From a virus: a stretch of 35,080 nt of DNA. Below the pieces are notes generated by a model. It worked only from the letters and a program-made list of their open reading frames with translations. It searched no databases and had not been told where the DNA came from. Positions 4,399 through 32,919 of the stretch are shown piece by piece (position 1 is the stretch's first letter; each line of letters begins with the position of its first letter). Made by a program: the position numbers and the translations under genes. The stretch lies in the IMG/VR virus record IMGVR_UViG_3300012954_000030, positions 1-35,080 of that record; one strand, given 5' to 3'.

Positions 4399-5309
4399 AA
4401 GAACTTTGGGTAGAAAAATATCGTCCTAAAACAGTGGACGGATATGTGTTTAGAGATGAACATCAACAAGCACAGGTAAAAAAGTGGATACAAGAAAAAA
4501 CTATTCCACATTTATTGTTTAGTGGTAATGCAGGTATTGGTAAGACAACACTTGCAAAACTGTTGTTCAATGAACTAGAAATAAATGATTTAGATATACT
4601 TGAAATAAACGCAAGTAGAACAAATAGTGTTGATGACGTAAGAGATAAAATTGTAAACTTTGTGCAAATGATTCCATTTGGAGAGTTTAAAGTTGTATTA
4701 CTTGATGAGGCAGATTATCTAAGTCCAAACGCACAGGCGGCACTACGTGGTGTTATGGAGGAGTATCATACTACTGCAAGATTTATTTTAACTTGTAACT
4801 ATCCTAATAGAATTATTCCTGCACTACATTCAAGATGTCAAGGTTTTCATATTGCAAAAATAGATCAAACAGAGTTTACTGCTAGAGTGGCAAAAATTCT
4901 AATTGATGAAGGTGTGCAACCTGATTTAGATATACTTGACACTTATGTAAAAGCAACATATCCTGATTTACGTAAATGTATCAATATGGTACAGATGAAT
5001 TCACAAGAAGGTAAACTACTTGCTCCTAATGAAAGTGATAAAGCAGAAGCAGATTGGAAACTTGATATGGTCGAACTGTTTAAAGCAGGTAAGATCAGTG
5101 AAGCAAGAAAACTTGTTTGTGGTAGAGCAAGAGCAGAAGAGATGGAAGAAGTTTATCGTTGGTTGTATGATAATATAGAATTGTTTGGTGATGAAGAAAA
5201 ACAAGACAAAGCAATAATGATTATTAAACAAGGACTAGTTGATCATACACTAGTCGTTGATCCTGAGATTAATTTAGCGGCAACATTAATTAAACTAGCA
5301 AGGTTGTAA
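4395..5309 (+). CDS. 44: Clamp-loader large subunit, T4 gp44-like
   Basis: A 304-residue AAA+ protein beginning [12 protein letters not shown], with Walker A GNAGIGKT (residues 44-51), Walker B VLLDEAD (about 100-106), a sensor 1 Asn in LTCNYPNRI and the SRC arginine-finger motif (146-148). These are the features of the gp44/RFC small-subunit family, and length is close to T4 gp44 (319). It would load the gp45 clamp (30436) for the gp43 polymerase (25746). In T4, gene 44 is followed by 62 (small subunit); here a ferredoxin gene overlaps its stop, and no gp62-like protein was recognised in the window. Confidence 0.9.
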
Positions 5310-5644
5310 TGACATATCTAGTTAATGAAAACTGTATTAAGTGTAAACACTTAGATTGTGTAGAAGTTTGCCCAGTCGACTGTTTTTATGAAGGCGAAAA
5401 TATGCTTGTTATTAATCCTGATGAATGTATTGACTGTGGCGTATGTGAACCTGAGTGTCCTGTTGATGCTATTATTCCAGATCACCAAGACGATGGCAAG
5501 TGGTTAGAGTTGAATAGTAAATACAGTAACACTTGGCCTAATATTGCAGTTAAGGATATTACTAAAATACCAGAAGATGCAGAAGAATACGCAGGTGTTG
5601 AAAATAAATTTGAAAAGTACTTTAGTGACAAACCAGGAGAATAA
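5309..5644 (+). CDS. fdxA: 7Fe ferredoxin, FdxA-like
   Basis: The 111-residue protein carries nine cysteines at 9, 12, 17, 21, 25, 40, 43, 46 and 50. This matches, one residue offset, the pattern of Azotobacter-type 7Fe ferredoxin I: C9, C17 and C50 would bind the [3Fe-4S] cluster, and C21, C40, C43 and C46 the [4Fe-4S] cluster. The long C-terminal tail ([19 protein letters not shown]) is as I remember it in alphaproteobacterial FdxA, suggesting acquisition from the host lineage. It is a soluble one-electron carrier, and all cluster ligands are intact. It overlaps the gp44 stop by one base (TAATG), so it is translationally coupled to the clamp loader. The electron acceptor is unknown. Confidence 0.85.
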
Positions 5645-9689: not shown

Positions 9690-10154
9690 ATGCGATTATC
9701 GAAAAATTTTACGTTGACTGAATATACAAAAAGTCAAACAGCACTTAGACAGGGTATAGACAATACTCCTGGTGATGAGCATTTAGAAGCGGCAAAGACA
9801 CTATTTGAAAAAGTGGTGCAACCAGTTAGAGATAACTTTGGACCAACAGTGATTAATTCAGGATACAGAGGACCTGATCTAAACAAAGCAGTAGGCGGTA
9901 GTGCAACTAGCCAACATTGTAAAGGTCAAGCAGTAGATATTGAAGTTCCTGGTGTAGCAAACTACGATGTAGCAGAATGGATCAAAGATAATTTAGACTT
10001 CGATCAAGTAATTTTAGAATTTTACACTCCAGGTATTCCAGATTCAGGTTGGGTTCATGTGTCATATAACAACACAGGCGAGCAACGAAAGTCTGTATTA
10101 ACAGCAATGAAAGAAAATGGAAAAACAGTATACAAACACGGACTTATCGCATAG
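9690..10154 (+). CDS. M15-type zinc peptidase, probable endolysin
   Basis: The 154-residue protein has the Peptidase M15A layout: NFTLTEYTKSQTA at the start, INSGYRGPDLN, then the zinc motif S-x-H-x-x-G-x-A-x-D as SQHCKGQAVDIE (about residues 71-82), and WVHVSY with the last His ligand. Phage members cut peptidoglycan cross-links (D-Ala-D-Ala carboxypeptidase or L-Ala-D-Glu endopeptidase type). There is no signal peptide, so release would need a holin. Several membrane proteins and spanin-like genes follow directly, supporting an endolysin role. The exact bond cut is not determined. Confidence 0.75.
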   Translation: MRLSKNFTLTEYTKSQTALRQGIDNTPGDEHLEAAKTLFEKVVQPVRDNFGPTVINSGYRGPDLNKAVGGSATSQHCKGQAVDIEVPGVANYDVAEWIKDNLDFDQVILEFYTPGIPDSGWVHVSYNNTGEQRKSVLTAMKENGKTVYKHGLIA

Positions 10155-10260
10155 TTGTCAAAACTGTGGTCATGAAAAACATGACGGCCCACTATGGAAA
10201 GAATTTACAGATGGTGATGGCAAAGTCATAATGATAGAAGTTTGTAAACAAGGAAGATAA
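10117..10260 (+). CDS. Small zinc-ribbon-like protein overlapping the endolysin
   Basis: A 47-residue ORF in another frame starts at ATG 10117, 38 bases inside the endolysin gene, and ends at TAA 10258-10260, one base into the next ATG. Cysteines occur in SCQNCGHEKHDGPLW and near the end (VCKQGR), giving Cys-x-x-Cys-Gly-His plus a third Cys, a possible partial metal site. It fills an otherwise unexplained 105-base gap, and the chain of overlaps supports it. I recall short Cys-rich proteins with a C-x-x-C-x-H start and G-PL-K in marine phages. A start inside the endolysin is the weakest part of the call. Confidence 0.5.
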   Translation: MEKQYTNTDLSHSCQNCGHEKHDGPLWKEFTDGDGKVIMIEVCKQGR

Positions 10261-10475
10261 TGGAAAAAGTAGTTAAAGCAATAGCAGAACATTTAGACGT
10301 TGATCCATCTAAAGTTGTACCAACAGCACATTTAATAGATGACTTAGGTGCTGACGACTTTGATATTGTCGAAATGACCATTGCAATACAAAATGCAACA
10401 GGCAAAACTATTTCAAGTGAAGACGAAGCCAACGTAAAAACAGTTGGCGACTTTATTAAACTGGTAGAAGCATAA
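10260..10475 (+). CDS. Acyl carrier protein-like protein lacking the phosphopantetheine serine
   Basis: The 71-residue acidic protein follows the ACP pattern: VVKAIAEHLDVDPSKV, then LIDDLGADDFDIVEMTIAIQ, ISSEDEANVKTVGDFIKLVE. In ACPs the cofactor is attached to Ser in D-S-L; here the position is Asp (D32-D33-F34). So the fold is probably kept, but the protein cannot carry a normal 4'-phosphopantetheine arm there. It might imitate host holo-ACP, bind ACP partners or serve another purpose. It is coupled by one-base overlaps to its neighbours in the late block with lysis genes. The ACP similarity is strong by eye; the function is inference. Confidence 0.65.
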   Translation: MEKVVKAIAEHLDVDPSKVVPTAHLIDDLGADDFDIVEMTIAIQNATGKTISSEDEANVKTVGDFIKLVEA

Positions 10476-10960
10476 TGTTTAGTTCTATTAAAATAGCGAT
10501 GGTTTTAATTTTGTTGGCAGGTGCCGGCGGTGGCTTTATGTATGTTAAAAACTTACAAAAGAATCTTGCTATCAGTGAGGCCAATAATGCTAAACTAGAG
10601 CAAAGTGTTGAAAGTCAAAAAGCAGTAATTACTCAAATTAAAGCAGACTTTGAAGCAATGACTAAAATAAAAGCAGAAATAGAAAAACAAAACCAAATTC
10701 TTAAAGCAGAGTACCAGGCTTTAGATAAAAAGTTTAATAAAATAAACGGAAAAGGCGAAGTACGTGATATTGGCGATCTCGCAACAAAGAGGCCTGAGTC
10801 CGTAGAGAAGATAATTAATAAAGGAAGTGCCAATGCAATGAGATGTAGCGAAATTGCTATGGGCAGTCCATTAACAGAGAAAGAGAAAAATGCAACTAAG
10901 AAGTCTGAAATCAATTCTGAGTGTCCTAGTATTGCTAACCCTAACTACGTTCCTTACTAG
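10475..10960 (+). CDS. Inner-membrane spanin-like protein (Rz-type)
   Basis: The 161-residue protein has one N-terminal transmembrane helix (about residues 5-24, IAMVLILLAGAGGGFMYV), then a long charged coiled coil (28-95, QKNLAISEANN through EYQALDKKF), then a Cys-containing C-terminal region. This is the architecture of an i-spanin (Rz). A lipoprotein gene begins in a different frame inside its last 71 bases, the classic overlapped Rz/Rz1 arrangement. Together they would fuse inner and outer membranes at lysis. Sequence alone gives the topology; the spanin function is inferred from architecture and position after the endolysin. Confidence 0.6.
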   Translation: MFSSIKIAMVLILLAGAGGGFMYVKNLQKNLAISEANNAKLEQSVESQKAVITQIKADFEAMTKIKAEIEKQNQILKAEYQALDKKFNKINGKGEVRDIGDLATKRPESVEKIINKGSANAMRCSEIAMGSPLTEKEKNATKKSEINSECPSIANPNYVPY

Positions 10961-11279
10961 TTGTGGGACAGCAGTTAAGCAATTAGACATCTTTACTACA
11001 GAAGTTGAACGAGAACCTCTTGCTCTTCCTGAGCCGTTAACTCCTAAACTTGAAGAAATCAAGTGGACAATAATTACATCTGATAATGCAGATGAAGTAT
11101 TTGAAAAATTAAAAGCAGGAGGCGTAGATCCTGTATTGTTTGGTCTTACCGATGATGGCTACGAAGCACTAGCAAAAAACTTTGCACAGATACGTGCTTA
11201 TATGCTACAACAAGACGAAATAATTAAATCATACAAAGAATACTACGAGTCAGACGCAAATACCAATAAGAAAAAGTAA
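10890..11279 (+). CDS. Outer-membrane lipoprotein, candidate o-spanin
   Basis: A 129-residue protein with a lipoprotein signal peptide: basic MQLRSLK, a hydrophobic core, then the lipobox LTSC with lipidated Cys at about residue 25. The mature part contains WTIITSDNADEVFEKLKAGGVDPVLFGLTDDGYEALA and QQDEIIKSYKEYYE, blocks I recall from small T4-like phage proteins next to lysis genes. It overlaps the i-spanin-like gene by 71 bases in the +1 frame, which supports an Rz1-like role, although it is longer than typical Rz1. The next gene is a second lipoprotein, so which of the two is the o-spanin is open. Confidence 0.6.
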   Translation: MQLRSLKSILSVLVLLTLTTFLTSCGTAVKQLDIFTTEVEREPLALPEPLTPKLEEIKWTIITSDNADEVFEKLKAGGVDPVLFGLTDDGYEALAKNFAQIRAYMLQQDEIIKSYKEYYESDANTNKKK

Positions 11280-11487: not shown

Positions 11488-11772
11488 ATGTGGGAAATGA
11501 TTGAAAGAATGGCATCTGATAGACTGTGGATCTACACAGCCTTGGCAGGGTCATTGTTTGGAGCCGCTTTCTTGTTCTGGTTTAAAGATACTAGAATGGC
11601 AATGTGGGCAGTACGCAAGTTTGATAGTTTTTTAGAATATCTAGCAATACGTTGGGGTTGGACTTGGGTACAAAATGATCCTAATGCTTGGCGAACAAAA
11701 TATCCCTACGTTACGAAAAAGATTGACGAGTTAGAATCTCGTATTAAGAAACTAGAAGGGAAAAAGAAGTAA
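11488..11772 (+). CDS. Small membrane protein with C-terminal coiled coil
   Basis: A 94-residue protein with one transmembrane helix (about residues 14-33, IYTALAGSLFGAAFLFWF), a Trp-rich amphipathic segment (WGWTWVQNDPNAW) and a short coiled coil (IDELESRIKKLEGKKK). It follows a late promoter and two lipoproteins and is adjacent to other small membrane genes. It could be part of lysis (holin or antiholin) or a membrane-docking factor for assembly. No family is recognised. It abuts the next gene directly. Confidence 0.55.
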   Translation: MWEMIERMASDRLWIYTALAGSLFGAAFLFWFKDTRMAMWAVRKFDSFLEYLAIRWGWTWVQNDPNAWRTKYPYVTKKIDELESRIKKLEGKKK

Positions 11773-12204
11773 ATGTTTGACCAACTAGGAATGGAACTGA
11801 CAGATATTTTAGCCCCATGGATTGCAATACTAATATCCATTTCGGCGGCATTTTGGTTTAAGGATTTTGCAGTAAACTTAATGAGTGGATTAAAGTTAAA
11901 ATTTAATCCTGCCTTTAATGAAGGTGATCATATTATACTAGACGACTGCGATGCAATAATTGTTAAGATTGGTTTACGTGAAAGTGTGTTTGGTGTGTAC
12001 AGTGATAAAGGTTATGTTTGGAGATACATACCCAATGATAGAATTAAATTCCATAAACTAGAAAAAATTATAAACAAGAACCTTCACTTAGATAGTGAAG
12101 CAGAAAAGGGACGCAGAATTCAGGCAATGATTGATAAGGCACAAACAGAAGCAATAAATAAAAATAAAGAAGATATTACAAATTTAAAGAAGGGGAATAA
12201 GTAA
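11773..12204 (+). CDS. Membrane protein with MscS-like beta domain
   Basis: The 143-residue protein has a transmembrane helix (about residues 13-32), a linker helix (FAVNLMSGLKLKF), then a block reminiscent of the MscS beta domain: FNEGDHIILDDCDAIIVKIGLRES, a short turn, GYVWRYIPNDRIKF. A charged helix with basic C-terminus follows. MscS proteins are tension-gated channels with three transmembrane helices; this one has only one and is much shorter, so it is a minimal version or a protein that pairs with host MscS. The resemblance was judged by eye and is moderate. Its place in the late membrane block suggests a role near lysis. Confidence 0.45.
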   Translation: MFDQLGMELTDILAPWIAILISISAAFWFKDFAVNLMSGLKLKFNPAFNEGDHIILDDCDAIIVKIGLRESVFGVYSDKGYVWRYIPNDRIKFHKLEKIINKNLHLDSEAEKGRRIQAMIDKAQTEAINKNKEDITNLKKGNK

Positions 12205-12311
12205 TGGATTGTAAGTGTGAAAATTGTAAATGCGATTGCCACTGTGGGTCAAGTTGCGAAAAATGTCCTAACGATGTTTGTAATTCTTGCAAATGCGAAC
12301 ATTGTAAATAG
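12204..12311 (+). CDS. Metallothionein-like Cys-rich miniprotein
   Basis: A 35-residue ORF from ATG 12204 (overlapping the previous stop as TAATG) to TAG 12309-12311. Twelve residues are Cys (3, 5, 8, 10, 12, 14, 18, 21, 26, 29, 31, 34) and two are His, in C-x-C and C-x-x-C spacing with Lys, Asp and Glu between. AAGGGG lies at ribosome binding distance. This is metallothionein-like composition, suggesting a thiolate metal cluster (Zn, Cu or Cd), although it is not similar to bacterial SmtA that I can see. A structural zinc-cluster or redox role is an alternative. Coupling to neighbours supports expression. Confidence 0.55.
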   Translation: MDCKCENCKCDCHCGSSCEKCPNDVCNSCKCEHCK

Positions 12312-12313
12312 TT

Positions 12314-12658
12314 ATGAGTATAAAAGACATGATAACGCCTGAGGGCAAAGGACCAAAGAAAGTGGCAGACGTAAGTAAAAAAGTAAATGTAGAGTTAGAA
12401 GTTGATACTTCTGTTAAGGACTTAGGTCCTAATCCATATGCTAAACTAATTCATTTAGCACGAGCAGTAGATAGTTGGAGAATTTTTCCACGTATCTTTA
12501 TTACAACGTATATCTATTTGTTATACAAAGTTGTAATTTGGTACATGGCTATTCCAACTCCAACAATGGAACAATCAGGTTTGGTTTCTATTGTAGTTGG
12601 TGCTGGTGCGGCATGGTTTGGATTATATACGGGTTCTAGTAAAAAATCAGACAAATAG
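12314..12658 (+). CDS. Two-helix membrane protein, holin candidate
   Basis: The 114-residue protein has a soluble N-terminal 45 residues, then two hydrophobic helices: FPRIFITTYIYLLYKVVIWYM (about 57-77) and SGLVSIVVGAGAAWFGLYTGS (about 88-108), with a short Pro-rich turn between and a basic end (SSKKSDK). Two helices, small size and a charged tail fit a class II holin-like protein, and it lies with the endolysin and spanin-like genes. I recall similar GAGAAWFGLY proteins in marine phages but not a proven function. The holin role is inferred. Confidence 0.55.
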   Translation: MSIKDMITPEGKGPKKVADVSKKVNVELEVDTSVKDLGPNPYAKLIHLARAVDSWRIFPRIFITTYIYLLYKVVIWYMAIPTPTMEQSGLVSIVVGAGAAWFGLYTGSSKKSDK

Positions 12659-12696: not shown

Positions 12697-13548
12697 ATGG
12701 ATTATTACGATATTTTAGGCGTAGGCCGAAACGCATCATCAAAAGAAATCAAAACTGCTTTTCGTAAAAAAGCGGCAGAGCATCACCCTGACAAAGGTGG
12801 TGACGACTCAAAATTCAAACAAGTTAACGAAGCATACCAAACTTTATCTGATCAAGAAAAAAGATCCATGTATGATCAGTTTGGTACTAGTGATCCACAA
12901 CAAGCAGGATTTAGACAACAAGGACAACAGTTTCATTTTAATATGGGTGGCGCAGGCTTTGAAGAAGTTTTTAGTTCTTTTTTTGGTGACGGGTTTGGAA
13001 GAAGACAACCTATGCGTAACCAAGATATTACAATAGCCGCTGATATTGATTTAGAAGACATTGTAAACGGTAAAGAGTTTATTGCTACATTTAGATTAAG
13101 CAGTGGTAAAGAGCAAACAGTGAATATAACACTACCTCCAGGTGTAAGACCAGGTGATAAAATACGTTATGGCGGAATGGGTAGTGATCAAATACCAAAT
13201 AGGCCACGTGGTGATTTATATGTATTAGTAAGAGTCAAGAACCACCATCGCTTTAAATTAGATGGGATAAATTTATATATAGATCAAAACATAAACGTTT
13301 TCGATCTTGTACTAGGCACAAATATTTTGATACAAACTATTCATAATAGAAGTATTAAATTAACTGTTCCTCCTGGTACTAATTCAGGCACAACTTTTAG
13401 TGTTCACGGACAGGGTCTTCCTGATAGAAGAAGTGGACAAACAGGCAATTTATTTGTAACTGTAAAGGCAATTACTCCAAAAATTGTAGATGAAAATATT
13501 TTAAACAAAATAAGAAAGATAAAGAATGAAACTGGTAACATATCCTAA
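12697..13548 (+). CDS. dnaJ: DnaJ/CbpA-type J-domain co-chaperone
   Basis: The 283-residue protein starts with a full J domain (YYDILGVGRNASSKEIK, HPD at residues 30-32, NEAYQTLSDQEKR), a Gly/Phe-rich linker (about 70-105), then the two C-terminal substrate-binding domains (LPPGVRPGDKIRYGGMG, then VPPGTNSGTTFSVHGQGLP). The zinc-finger region of DnaJ is absent, so it is CbpA-like (type II). The HPD motif means it can stimulate a DnaK ATPase, presumably the host's, since no DnaK is in the window. It ends 23 bases inside def. The ATG lies exactly at the predicted transcription start, so translation may be leaderless. Confidence 0.9.
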   Translation: MDYYDILGVGRNASSKEIKTAFRKKAAEHHPDKGGDDSKFKQVNEAYQTLSDQEKRSMYDQFGTSDPQQAGFRQQGQQFHFNMGGAGFEEVFSSFFGDGFGRRQPMRNQDITIAADIDLEDIVNGKEFIATFRLSSGKEQTVNITLPPGVRPGDKIRYGGMGSDQIPNRPRGDLYVLVRVKNHHRFKLDGINLYIDQNINVFDLVLGTNILIQTIHNRSIKLTVPPGTNSGTTFSVHGQGLPDRRSGQTGNLFVTVKAITPKIVDENILNKIRKIKNETGNIS

Positions 13549-25745: not shown

Positions 25746-28415
25746 ATGAGTTACGTAGATGCAATTTTTGATCGAGACCAAGACATTATTAGAGTCGTTG
25801 AACGTAAAGATGGCAAAAGAAGTTATCAAGAATTTCCAATAAAATATACATTCTATTATAAAGATCCTAAAGGTAAACACAAAAGCATCTTTGGTGATCC
25901 GCTTACAAGAATAGTTGCAAGAAATACAAAACAATTTAGAAAAGAACTTGCTATTAACAAAGGCAAGGACTTATTTGAAAGTGATGTCAATCCAATATTT
26001 CAATGTTTAAGTGAAAACTACTTAAACGTAGATGCTCCTAAACTTAATGTAGCATTTTTTGATATTGAGACAGACTTTGATCCAGAACGTGGATTTGCTG
26101 ATCCAAGCGATCCGTTTATGCCAATTACTGCAATCACTGTACACTTACAATGGTTAGACGCACTTGTTACGTTTGCTATGCCTCCTAAAGGACTTACTAT
26201 GGAAGAAGCAAAAGAACAAGTAGCAGAGTTTGATAACACATATCTATATGACAATGAAGGAGATATGTTACAAGCATTTTTAGACAGTATTCAAGATGCA
26301 GATATTTTAAGTGGTTGGAACAGTGAAGGTTATGATATTCCTTATACTGTGAATCGTGTTGCTAGAGTATTAAGTAAAGATGATACAAGACGTTTTTGTT
26401 TATGGAAACAACTGCCTAAGAAAAGAGAATTTGAAAGATATGGTCGTAAGAGTGAAACTTATGATCTAGTTGGTCGTGTACACTTAGATAGTTTAGAACT
26501 GTATAGGAAATACACATATGAAGAAAGACACACTTATAGACTTGATGCTATTGGTGAAATGGAAGTTGGTGAAAATAAAACAGTTTATGAAGGTACATTA
26601 GATCAACTTTATAACAATGACTTTAAAAAGTTCATTGAATATAATAGACAAGACGTTGCACTACTTGATAAACTTGATAAGAAACTAAAGTTTATTGATT
26701 TAAGTAATGAACTTGCACACGCCAATACTGTGTTGCTACAAACTACTATGGGTGCTGTCGCAGTTACAGAACAAGCAATTATCAATGAAGCACATCATAG
26801 AGGACTACAAGTTCCTAATAGAGTACACAGAGAGCCAGGTAGTGATCCGGCGGCAGGTGCTTATGTGGCGTTTCCTAAAAAAGGTGTACATAAGTGGATA
26901 GGTTCAATGGACTTGAATTCACTATATCCATCTGTTATTAGAGCATTGAATATGGATCCGGCAACTATTGTTGGACAACTAAGGCCAACTGATACACAGG
27001 CATTCATTGAAGATCAAATGACATTACAGAAAAAGTCATTTGCAGGTGCTTGGGAAGGTAAGTTTGGTACACTAGAATATGAAGCAGTAATGGAGAAACG
27101 TAAAGATGTTGACATTACTATTGATTGGGAGAATGGTGATGCACAGGTTTATAGTGCCGCAGAAGTTCATAAAATTATTTTTGATAGCAACAATCCTTGG
27201 ATGCTTACTGCTAATGGAACCATACTTACAAATGAGTTTGATGGAGTTATACCTGGACTACTAAAACGTTGGTATTCAGAACGTAAAGAATTGCAGGCTA
27301 TGAAAAAGAAAGCCATTGAAGCAGGTAATAAAATCGAGATTGCGTTTTGGGATAAAAGACAACTTGTTAAAAAGATTAACCTAAATAGTTTATATGGTGC
27401 AATTCTAAATCCAGGATGTAGATTCTTTGACCCACGTATTGGACAATCTACTACACTTACTGGTAGACAAATTGCAAAACATATGGCGGCAAAAGTAAAT
27501 GAAGTTATTACAGGTACATATGATCACGTAGGTAAGAGTGTGATATATGGTGATACAGACTCTGTGTATTTTAGTGCATTTCCTATACTAAAGGCAGACA
27601 TAAACAACGGCAATATTCCTTGGACAAAAGATAGTGTTATTAAGTTGTATGATCAAGTATGTGGAGAAGCAAACAAATCTTTTGAAGACTTTATGATGAA
27701 AGCATTTCATTGTCCAAAGAGCAGATCAGATGTTATTGCGGCAGGTAGAGAAATTGTTGCAGAAACAGGATTGTATATTACAAAGAAAAGATATGCCGCA
27801 CTAATTTATGATGAAGAAGGTGAACGTAAAGACGTTGAAGGTAAGCCAGGTAAAGTAAAAGCAATGGGTCTTGATCTTAAACGTTCTGATACTCCTGTGT
27901 TTATGCAAGAGTTTTTAAGTGAACTTTTGATGATGGTGTTGCAAGAAAAAACTGAAAAAGAAATATTAAATCGTATTACAGAATTTAGGACAGAATTCAA
28001 ACTAAGGCCAGGTTATGAAAAAGGCTCACCTAAACGTGCAAATAAAATTGGCGAGTATTTAAGAAAAGAACAACGTGATGGTAAGACTAATATGCCTGGA
28101 CACGTTAGAGCAAGTATCAATTGGAATAATTTAAAACGTATGAACGGTGACAAATACAGTCAAGAAATTGTTGACGGTATGAAAGTTATTGTTTGTAAAC
28201 TTAAACAGAATCCATTAGGTTATACTAGTGTTGCTTATCCAACAGATGAACTACGTATTCCTGATTGGTTTAAAGAACTTCCATTTGATGATGATGCAAT
28301 GGAAAGTACTATTATTGATAATAAACTAGACAACTTAATTGGTGTGCTAGAATATGATATTAATAGTACACAACAAAAAAATACTTTTAATAACCTATTT
28401 GACTTTGGGGAGTAA
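25746..28415 (+). CDS. 43: Family B DNA polymerase, T4 gp43-like
   Basis: The 889-residue protein (T4: 898) is intact. Exonuclease motifs: FDIETD near residue 101, GWNSEGYDIPY near 190 and YNRQDVALL near 300. Polymerase motifs: MDLNSLYPSVIRALNMDP (motif A, about 388), KINLNSLYGAIL (motif B, about 543) and YGDTDSVYF (motif C, about 601). A CAGGAG site precedes the ATG. It replicates the phage genome with the gp45 clamp and gp44 clamp loader. No intein, intron or split is seen, unlike some related phage polymerases. gp45 lies 2 kb downstream and gp44 21 kb upstream, so the T4 gene cluster is scattered. Confidence 0.97.
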   Translation: MSYVDAIFDRDQDIIRVVERKDGKRSYQEFPIKYTFYYKDPKGKHKSIFGDPLTRIVARNTKQFRKELAINKGKDLFESDVNPIFQCLSENYLNVDAPKLNVAFFDIETDFDPERGFADPSDPFMPITAITVHLQWLDALVTFAMPPKGLTMEEAKEQVAEFDNTYLYDNEGDMLQAFLDSIQDADILSGWNSEGYDIPYTVNRVARVLSKDDTRRFCLWKQLPKKREFERYGRKSETYDLVGRVHLDSLELYRKYTYEERHTYRLDAIGEMEVGENKTVYEGTLDQLYNNDFKKFIEYNRQDVALLDKLDKKLKFIDLSNELAHANTVLLQTTMGAVAVTEQAIINEAHHRGLQVPNRVHREPGSDPAAGAYVAFPKKGVHKWIGSMDLNSLYPSVIRALNMDPATIVGQLRPTDTQAFIEDQMTLQKKSFAGAWEGKFGTLEYEAVMEKRKDVDITIDWENGDAQVYSAAEVHKIIFDSNNPWMLTANGTILTNEFDGVIPGLLKRWYSERKELQAMKKKAIEAGNKIEIAFWDKRQLVKKINLNSLYGAILNPGCRFFDPRIGQSTTLTGRQIAKHMAAKVNEVITGTYDHVGKSVIYGDTDSVYFSAFPILKADINNGNIPWTKDSVIKLYDQVCGEANKSFEDFMMKAFHCPKSRSDVIAAGREIVAETGLYITKKRYAALIYDEEGERKDVEGKPGKVKAMGLDLKRSDTPVFMQEFLSELLMMVLQEKTEKEILNRITEFRTEFKLRPGYEKGSPKRANKIGEYLRKEQRDGKTNMPGHVRASINWNNLKRMNGDKYSQEIVDGMKVIVCKLKQNPLGYTSVAYPTDELRIPDWFKELPFDDDAMESTIIDNKLDNLIGVLEYDINSTQQKNTFNNLFDFGE

Positions 28416-31174: not shown

Positions 31175-31375
31175 ATGACGAGTGTTGATGAAAGAGACAG
31201 TGATGCTACTTGGGAAAATGAACAAAGTATGGTTACAATTCCCCTAAAGGAGTATGACAAACTTCGTGAAAGACAAAAGTATATTACTGATAGAGATATG
31301 ATTGCAGTGATAGACAAAATCGAAGAACTTGTAAGAGCACTAAGAAAACACATTGTAAGGACGGAACTAGATTGA
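31175..31375 (+). CDS. Small hypothetical protein with coiled coil
   Basis: A 66-residue acidic protein starting at ATG 31175, eight bases after the clamp stop, with TAGGAG before it. The C-terminal 40 residues (LKEYDKLRERQKYI, IDKIEELVRALRKHI) look like a helical coiled coil. An in-frame start at 31127 inside the clamp gene is rejected. No family is recognised. It overlaps the next gene start by four bases. Confidence 0.5.
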   Translation: MTSVDERDSDATWENEQSMVTIPLKEYDKLRERQKYITDRDMIAVIDKIEELVRALRKHIVRTELD

Positions 31376-32919
31376 ATACTAACCTAACACAAGAGCAAAA
31401 AGACTACGCAATTTTTCTTCCAGCGATTAGCGGATTCTTTGCAACCTTCATTGGTAAGCAACGTAGAGAAGAATATGTAGAAAAGTCACGAATACCATCT
31501 AACTTTCCAAATGAAGTAGAAAGCATGAACTGGCTAAATCCTAGCAAGAGTATGTTTGAATACAAATGGAGTTTGTACTCGGCAGGACACGCCGACTTAG
31601 ATGTTAATAAAGATGTTTCTAAAGAACTAATGGTACGTGATCGTGATAGACAAAACTCTTGGTTGTTAGGTGATTCAGGTGGTTTCCAAATAGGTAAGGG
31701 TGTATGGGAAGGTGACTGGAAAGATCCTAATTGCCCTAAAGCAAAAAAGAAACGTGAACAAGTTTTAACTTGGATGGACGCATACATGGATTATGGTATG
31801 ATACTTGATATTCCGGCTTGGGTATCTCGTTCTCCTGCGGGTGTAAAAGCAACAGGTATTAGTACATATCAAGAAGCAGTAGCGGCCACTAGAATAAACA
31901 ATGATTACTTTATGAAAAATCGTAATGGTAATTGTAAGTTCTTAAATGTATTACAAGGTGAAAATCATGCTGACGCAGAAGATTGGTATCAGCAAATGAA
32001 AGACTACTGTGATCCTAAAAAATATACAGATCACTTTAATGGTTGGAGTATGGGTGGACAGAATATGTGTGATATTCATCTTGCTCTTAAACGTCTTGTT
32101 GCATTACGTTTTGATGGATTACTTGAAAAAGGTAAACATGACTTTATGCACTTCTTAGGTACAAGTAAACTAGAGTGGGCAACACTTCTTACAGATGTAC
32201 AAAGAGCAGTAAGAAAATATCACAATGAAAACTTTACAATTACATTTGATTGTGCAAGTCCTTTCTTGGCAACTGCAAATGGTCAAGTATATTGTGAACT
32301 AGAAACAAAAGACAGAACCAAATGGGTTTACAGAATGGTGCCTAGTATTGATGACAAGGCACTTGCAACGGATACAACACCTTTTGCTGATGCTTTTGTT
32401 AGAGAAGGCAAACATTCAAGTTTCTTAGATAGTCCTATTACTAAAGGACTTAATGCTAAAGATGTTTGTATATATGCACCAGGTGACCTAAATAAAATAG
32501 GTAAAGAAGGTAAAACAAGTTGGGATAGTTTTAGTTATGCAATACAAATGGGACACAATGTTTGGATGCACATCAACGCCGTCCAAGAAGCAAATAGACA
32601 ATACGACAATGGAATCATTCCGTCAATGCTTGTGGAAGAGCGGTTTGACAGGTTATTTTTCCGTGATGTTGTGGAGGCAATATTCGCAACTGACAACAGA
32701 GACGAAGCGAATGCAGTAATAGAAGAATTTTCAAGATTCTGGATGTCAATTATTGGCACTAGAGGAGCAACAGGTAAACGAACTATTAATGCAAGTACGC
32801 AGTTCGCAAACCTATTCGAGGAAACTTCAGACTCTGCTACAAAAACAGAACCTGCAGAGGAGTTTACTGAAGAAGAAAACAATAAACTGGAGGAACTAGA
32901 AAATGGCCCACAAATCTAA
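31372..32919 (+). CDS. Transglycosylase of the TGT/DpdA family, possible DNA 7-deazaguanine insertion enzyme
   Basis: The 515-residue protein shows the core TGT motifs: LGDSGGFQ (100-106; TGT has TDSGGFQ), LNVLQGE (191-197; TGT VQGG), WSMGGQ (225-230; TGT GGLAVGE), HFLGTSK (260-266) and FDCASPFLATANG (292-304; TGT FDC-x-P-TR-AR-G, with the nucleophile Asp 293). I see no C-x-C-x-x-C zinc site of bacterial TGT, which points towards a divergent relative such as DpdA. DpdA enzymes swap guanine in DNA for preQ0-type bases, protecting phage DNA from restriction. Start is TTG 31372 with AAGGA upstream. No 7-deazaguanine synthesis genes are in the window, so the base would come from the host or elsewhere. 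Family likely; DNA activity inferred. Confidence 0.65.
   Translation: MNTNLTQEQKDYAIFLPAISGFFATFIGKQRREEYVEKSRIPSNFPNEVESMNWLNPSKSMFEYKWSLYSAGHADLDVNKDVSKELMVRDRDRQNSWLLGDSGGFQIGKGVWEGDWKDPNCPKAKKKREQVLTWMDAYMDYGMILDIPAWVSRSPAGVKATGISTYQEAVAATRINNDYFMKNRNGNCKFLNVLQGENHADAEDWYQQMKDYCDPKKYTDHFNGWSMGGQNMCDIHLALKRLVALRFDGLLEKGKHDFMHFLGTSKLEWATLLTDVQRAVRKYHNENFTITFDCASPFLATANGQVYCELETKDRTKWVYRMVPSIDDKALATDTTPFADAFVREGKHSSFLDSPITKGLNAKDVCIYAPGDLNKIGKEGKTSWDSFSYAIQMGHNVWMHINAVQEANRQYDNGIIPSMLVEERFDRLFFRDVVEAIFATDNRDEANAVIEEFSRFWMSIIGTRGATGKRTINASTQFANLFEETSDSATKTEPAEEFTEEENNKLEELENGPQI

Follow-up and report, generated by a model that had tools for sequence, protein, structure and literature searches.

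A conserved twelve-cysteine microprotein encoded within a phage lysis cassette

The window is the whole stretch of DNA analyzed here, 35,080 nucleotides of a virus (positions 1 to 35,080 of IMG/VR record IMGVR_UViG_3300012954_000030). It carries a lysis cassette in the order M15 endolysin, sister microprotein, acyl carrier protein, inner-membrane spanin, outer-membrane spanin, lipoprotein, TM94, TM143, 12-Cys gene, TM114 and DnaJ. The features are as follows.

9690–10154, plus strand: Peptidase M15_3 endolysin candidate (PF08291, 8.7e-20)
10117–10260, plus strand: second Cys/His microprotein (sister family) with a reduced C-terminal knuckle (CQNCGHEKHDGPL...IEVCKQGR), assigned from an HMM match, alignment, hhalign homology and an AF2-predicted beta-hairpin
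10260–10475, plus strand: acyl carrier protein within the cassette (PF00550, 9.1e-8; phrog_5934)
10475–10960, plus strand: inner-membrane spanin, Rz-like (phrog_739, 4.8e-15)
10890–11279, plus strand: outer-membrane spanin lipoprotein, Rz1-like, overlapping (phrog_812, 4.9e-9)
11488–11772, plus strand: TM94, a one-TM cassette protein, present in 26 of the 130 Cys loci listed
11773–12204, plus strand: TM143, a membrane protein with weak similarity to the MscS beta-domain (PF00924, E 0.0048, below the cut-off)
12190–12195, plus strand: AAGGGG, a Shine-Dalgarno-like site 8 nt upstream of the microprotein ATG
12204–12311, plus strand: 12-Cys microprotein gene (main family), conserved in IMG/VR, family dN/dS 0.12
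12314–12658, plus strand: TM114, a membrane protein, holin-like by inspection and a putative holin (phrog_10198, 8.7e-25)
12697–13548, plus strand: DnaJ-like protein that marks the conserved downstream edge of the cassette (PF01556/PF00226; synteny)

The acyl carrier protein gene lies between the endolysin and the spanins, and one is also found in 12 of 86 related cassettes.

The gene at 12204–12311 encodes a protein of 35 residues, MDCKCENCKCDCHCGSSCEKCPNDVCNSCKCEHCK, with cysteines at positions 3, 5, 8, 10, 12, 14, 18, 21, 26, 29, 31 and 34 and histidines at 13 and 33. Cysteine makes up 34% of the residues. Of the 11 Cys-Cys intervals, nine are CxC or CxxC; in the remaining pair, 3 and 4 residues separate the cysteines. 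The gene starts in the sequence TAATG, where the stop codon of the 11773–12204 gene shares one base with the ATG. The open reading frame, the AAGGGG site, the one-base overlap and the 12 Cys and 2 His given in the preliminary description are all borne out, and so is its claim that metal ligands dominate the sequence. The Shine-Dalgarno-like motif precedes 96 of 112 starts in the family, compared with 228 of 2482 (9%) random ATGs. In a first-order Markov simulation of 300 windows modelled on the 34.8% GC of the present one, 294 had no open reading frame of 25–60 residues with at least 25% Cys, and the remaining six gave 7 or 8 Cys. Since nothing comparable arose in these simulated windows, the open reading frame is not a product of chance.

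The gene is absent from 46 syntenic loci. The gap between TM143 and TM114 is 109 nt in the window and at most 65 nt in the other loci that have both genes adjacent; in the window the 12-Cys gene is therefore cleanly inserted as a single gene.

The 12-Cys protein and its relatives gave no match in Pfam, PHROGs or NCBIfam. Four related proteins were found in loci retrieved through the flanking genes, and a degenerate DNA pattern run over IMG/VR identified at least 120 stretches. After a profile search there were at least 130 matches (one window duplicate and four genome-bin contigs included), nearly all on IMG/VR contigs, representing at least 117 distinct proteins, at least 88 of them at less than 80% similarity. 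The family core reads C-x2-C-x-[C/H]-x2-H-C-x(3-5)-C-x2-C-x-ND[VI]-C-x2-C-x-C. Seven columns of the alignment are invariant and four nearly so, all of them Cys, His, Asn or Asp, the conservation of ND being partly imposed by the search pattern, which fixed the C-terminal half. The window form and some relatives have an extra N-terminal CxC and a C-terminal C-x2-C, giving 12 Cys. Other members, with about 9 Cys, end in a longer conserved tail (DIPDSFTxENT, TDARSWxGYLK or WQDSGVE). That these tails might be modules common to other proteins was considered and rejected, as they are almost confined to the main family. A second scan, anchored on CxxCGHxCHC only, revealed among the matches listed many more subfamilies that differ strongly in their middle part, suggesting that what the superfamily conserves is a pair of Cys/His knuckles.

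The family evolves under purifying selection; the bootstrap range of the dN/dS of 0.12 is 0.09–0.17, from 36 independent pairs compared over the half of the sequence that lies outside the first search pattern. The ratio is 0.016 at Cys and His codons and 0.26 elsewhere. Between the window and locus L118 there are 11.5 synonymous changes over 14.7 sites and 16.5 nonsynonymous changes over 90.3 sites. That the Cys pattern should recur in related genomes had been set as a check on this gene, and more than 100 distinct relatives keep it; it is near certain that the 12-Cys protein is a real, conserved phage microprotein that falls below annotation cut-offs, as was first suggested.

In all of 50 virus records the gene is single-copy. 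When the degenerate DNA pattern was applied to bacterial and archaeal genomes totalling 257 Gb, ten matches came up, of which four are real, all on contigs of binned environmental assemblies, and six were discarded as chance frames. Among 385 genomes belonging to the same class as the Rhodobacteraceae bin, the profile picked out no carrier of the family besides this bin, which was known before. The main family is rare in cellular genomes.

When the 35-mer and two of its relatives were compared with cultured phages by tblastn, no convincing match emerged, although low-complexity masking may hide matches. A whole-record profile search of cultured phages identified HTVC008M (E 4e-5) and, weakly, Mosig; no match was found in T4, KVP40, P-SSM2, S-PM2, Syn9, P-HM1, Phosso, Atu_ph07, RaK2 and others. 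The proteins concerned, HTVC008M gp49 (YP_007517915.1) and Mosig_00110 (QOI69074.1), both annotated as hypothetical proteins of cultured Pelagibacter phages, belong to a sister group. Relatives in pelagiphages, which the preliminary description had proposed to look for, are thus present as sister members. The window itself had been taken as pelagiphage DNA, for which the comparisons give no support: its DNA polymerase (25746–28415, plus strand) is closest to those of the jumbo phages Sinorhizobium Phosso (51%) and Agrobacterium Atu_ph07 (44%), which suggests that the window is a fragment of a large phage. The window also carries a bacterial-type ferredoxin (Fer4 + DUF3470; 5309–5644, plus strand) and, at 31372–32919 on the plus strand, a 515-residue protein that by eye resembles a tRNA-guanine transglycosylase or DpdA and has no Pfam match.

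A profile of gp49-like proteins located the sister microprotein of the window, MEKQYTNTDLSHSCQNCGHEKHDGPLWKEFTDGDGKVIMIEVCKQGR (coding positions 10117–10257), whose gene shares 38 nt with that of the M15 endolysin. Sister relatives occur in 86 other synteny loci, in lysis cassettes and often beside the endolysin. The gene stays adjacent to the endolysin across conserved cassettes though the endolysin type varies, being GH108 or GH19 elsewhere and M15 in the window. The sister proteins form a series from full CxNCGHxxHC...VCxxCRCxxC forms to reduced CxNCGRxHEG...VVCxxPRY forms, with about 4–8 ligands. Comparison of the sister and main family profiles gave an hhalign probability of 96% (E 2e-9), a score of the kind that Cys-rich alignments inflate; judged from these profiles, the two families are homologous and share a common ancestry. 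AlphaFold predicts in the sister protein a beta-hairpin between the two Cys knuckles (strands 26–31 and 37–43, pLDDT above 90 in the hairpin and 89–96 over the core), a modelled layout that is zinc-ribbon-like.

The AF2 model of the main-family protein (pLDDT 83) has no regular secondary structure and no hairpin. Foldseek found no significant match in the PDB (none at E ≤ 0.001) for either the main or the sister model. Against viral models it found one protein of 45 residues (TM 0.7, E 0.008), plausibly Mosig_00110. With 44 aligned members, neither PF02069 nor any other Pfam family matched at E ≤ 0.1, in a search where HMMER bias filters can weaken Cys-rich matches, and the 12-Cys protein alone matched no Pfam family at E ≤ 10. 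Profile and single-sequence searches of the PDB found no metallothionein up to E 10. Curated zinc-ribbon families gave no significant match, only scattered weak ones below threshold. The protein has the small size and the high Cys content in CxC and CxxC spacing (12 Cys in 35 residues) by which metallothioneins are recognized, and to this extent the earlier label of metallothionein-like is apt. Membership in a metallothionein family is not supported by the sequence comparisons: Pfam, PHROG, NCBIfam and the PDB returned no metallothionein, and the hairpin modelled in the sister family speaks for a folded zinc ribbon over a metal store. Literature searches found neither a phage metallothionein nor a description of a matching family.

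The gene is encoded with endolysin, spanin and membrane protein genes in the window and in other contigs. Within one type of cassette it occupies three slots: TM94-Cys-TM143 in L118 and L476, where the endolysin is a GH19 enzyme; TM94-Cys-TM114 in L171, where the Cys-rich gene begins at the TM94 stop and is followed by TM114; and TM143-Cys-TM114 in the window. A 128-residue open reading frame in L273 is a TM94 homologue with the Cys-rich domain fused at its C terminus, the sole fusion seen. Main-family loci lie near genes for T4-type lysozyme (26 loci), GH19 (18), GH108 (6), class-3 lipase (10) and spanin (8); in about half, no recognised lysis gene lies closer than 2.5 kb, and the other neighbours include gp43. 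The main-family gene is less than 2 kb from a PF00959 or PF00182 endolysin in 16 of 24 record-endolysin pairs against 2.4 expected, and in 5 of 11 against 1.0 expected (P 0.002) when one record per context is counted; as contexts were grouped by hand and neighbour genes are partly co-inherited, these statistics are support rather than proof. The association with lysis first proposed for the gene is strengthened by this proximity to endolysin, spanin and lysis-cassette membrane protein genes in several unrelated contexts, and by the TM94 fusion. Zinc supply to the M15 endolysin was rejected as a general rule, most of the neighbouring endolysins being GH19, GH108 or T4-type lysozymes.

Metal binding by the 12-Cys protein is likely from its sequence, and the metal would most likely be zinc. 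Because of the ligand pattern, the frozen Cys and His codons and the zinc-ribbon-like sister, we favor a microprotein folded by metal. It would probably be expressed late in infection and fold around Zn(II) into a compact pair of Cys/His knuckles, with about two sites in the conserved core and probably more in the 12-Cys form. It could then bind other proteins of the lysis module where the inner membrane faces the cytosol, contacting the one-TM protein TM94 or the neighbouring holin or endolysin proteins and tuning when or where the lysis proteins act. The gene context and the TM94 fusion lead us to infer a lysis role, against which stands that the lysis function of TM94 and TM114 is itself putative. 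We put at about even the chance that zinc stabilises the microprotein and that it acts at the inner membrane together with lysis proteins, with TM94, a holin or an endolysin as partner.

The Cys content of 34%, the CxC and CxxC spacing, ligand codons that are nearly frozen while others drift, and a main-family model without regular secondary structure would also suit a metallothionein-like metal or redox buffer. A fold-poor Zn/Cu-thiolate cluster would take up metal freed from host proteins or quench oxidants late, the position among lysis genes merely ensuring late expression. We consider this rather unlikely. In many relatives there are only about 9 Cys and the tails are longer, the hairpin zinc ribbon predicted for the sister family has about 4–8 ligands, and no metallothionein model or PDB sequence is similar. 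The conserved non-ligand residues, the single copy per record, the tails and the TM94 fusion fit one specific partner protein better than bulk metal storage.

We likewise hold it fairly improbable that the protein is a zinc-finger regulator or anti-host 'moron' with no role in lysis, which would act late by binding RNA, DNA or a host protein and ride in insertion-tolerant sites, lysis cassettes among them. The clean single-gene insertion in the window, the varied contexts, including PAAR-gp25-gp6 and gp43 neighbours, and the family-specific C-terminal tails (DIPDSFTxENT, WQDSGVE), which suggest a protein target, are consistent with such a passenger; recurrent proximity to several unrelated endolysin types and the fusion to TM94 are not expected of a random one. 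Returning to a lysis partner, a bolder form of it seems doubtful to us: that an undescribed large superfamily of phage zinc microproteins exerts metal- or redox-gated control of lysis, the knuckles sensing zinc or the thiol state as the cell dies, and timing lysis through contact with a cassette membrane protein.

At eight main-family loci (L243, L245, L246, L270, L290, L301, L323 and L336) the gene neighbours gp25-gp6, and at several of these a PAAR protein is encoded immediately before it. The sister genes of HTVC008M and Mosig occupy the matching place, just upstream of PAAR-like and gp25-gp6 genes. A virion or tail-tip component, or a chaperone for the metal-binding PAAR spike, with the lysis-cassette copies as paralogous uses, would account for these loci; it is very improbable overall, the window and most main-family loci being outside baseplate operons. 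That the open reading frame is spurious, as its mere 35 codons and its absence from the 46 syntenic loci might suggest, is contradicted by the conservation, dN/dS, Shine-Dalgarno sites and simulation and has practically no chance of being right.

The family is present in many uncultured phages yet missing from Pfam, PHROGs and NCBIfam, its members lying below annotation length limits and subject to low-complexity filters. It raises the question of whether abundant environmental phages control cell lysis through tiny metal proteins. Experiments are feasible, since two cultured pelagiphages carry sister genes (HTVC008M gp49 and Mosig_00110).

The bacterial metallothioneins SmtA and BmtA (PF02069) resemble the 12-Cys protein in being small and Cys-rich, with CxC and CxxC spacing and few His. 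They differ from it in Cys order and show no detectable sequence similarity to it; the 12-Cys protein is instead related, on profile evidence, to a zinc-ribbon-like family. Zinc-ribbon and rubredoxin-knuckle modules (the rubredoxin-like domain of rubrerythrin, Zn_ribbon_Nudix, bL32) are like the sister family with its two Cys knuckles and predicted beta-hairpin, and several give weak sub-threshold matches, whereas the main family lacks the hairpin, has 9–12 Cys and matches none of these families significantly.

HTVC008M gp49 and Mosig_00110, of 40–45 residues and related by profile, share the CxNCGHxxHC N-terminal knuckle and a VC/CC-x2-C-x-C C-terminal knuckle. In them a longer inter-knuckle loop replaces CxxCxND, the cysteines are fewer and the genes are located in a baseplate operon.

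Phage lysis accessory proteins, such as antiholins and the T4 RI/RIII-type regulators, are small and are encoded with, or act on, holin, endolysin or spanin genes. To our knowledge none of them is a Cys-rich metal protein. The 12-Cys protein, whose lysis function is putative, differs from them in being Cys-rich and probably metal-binding, and has in common with them its small size and the company of lysis genes.
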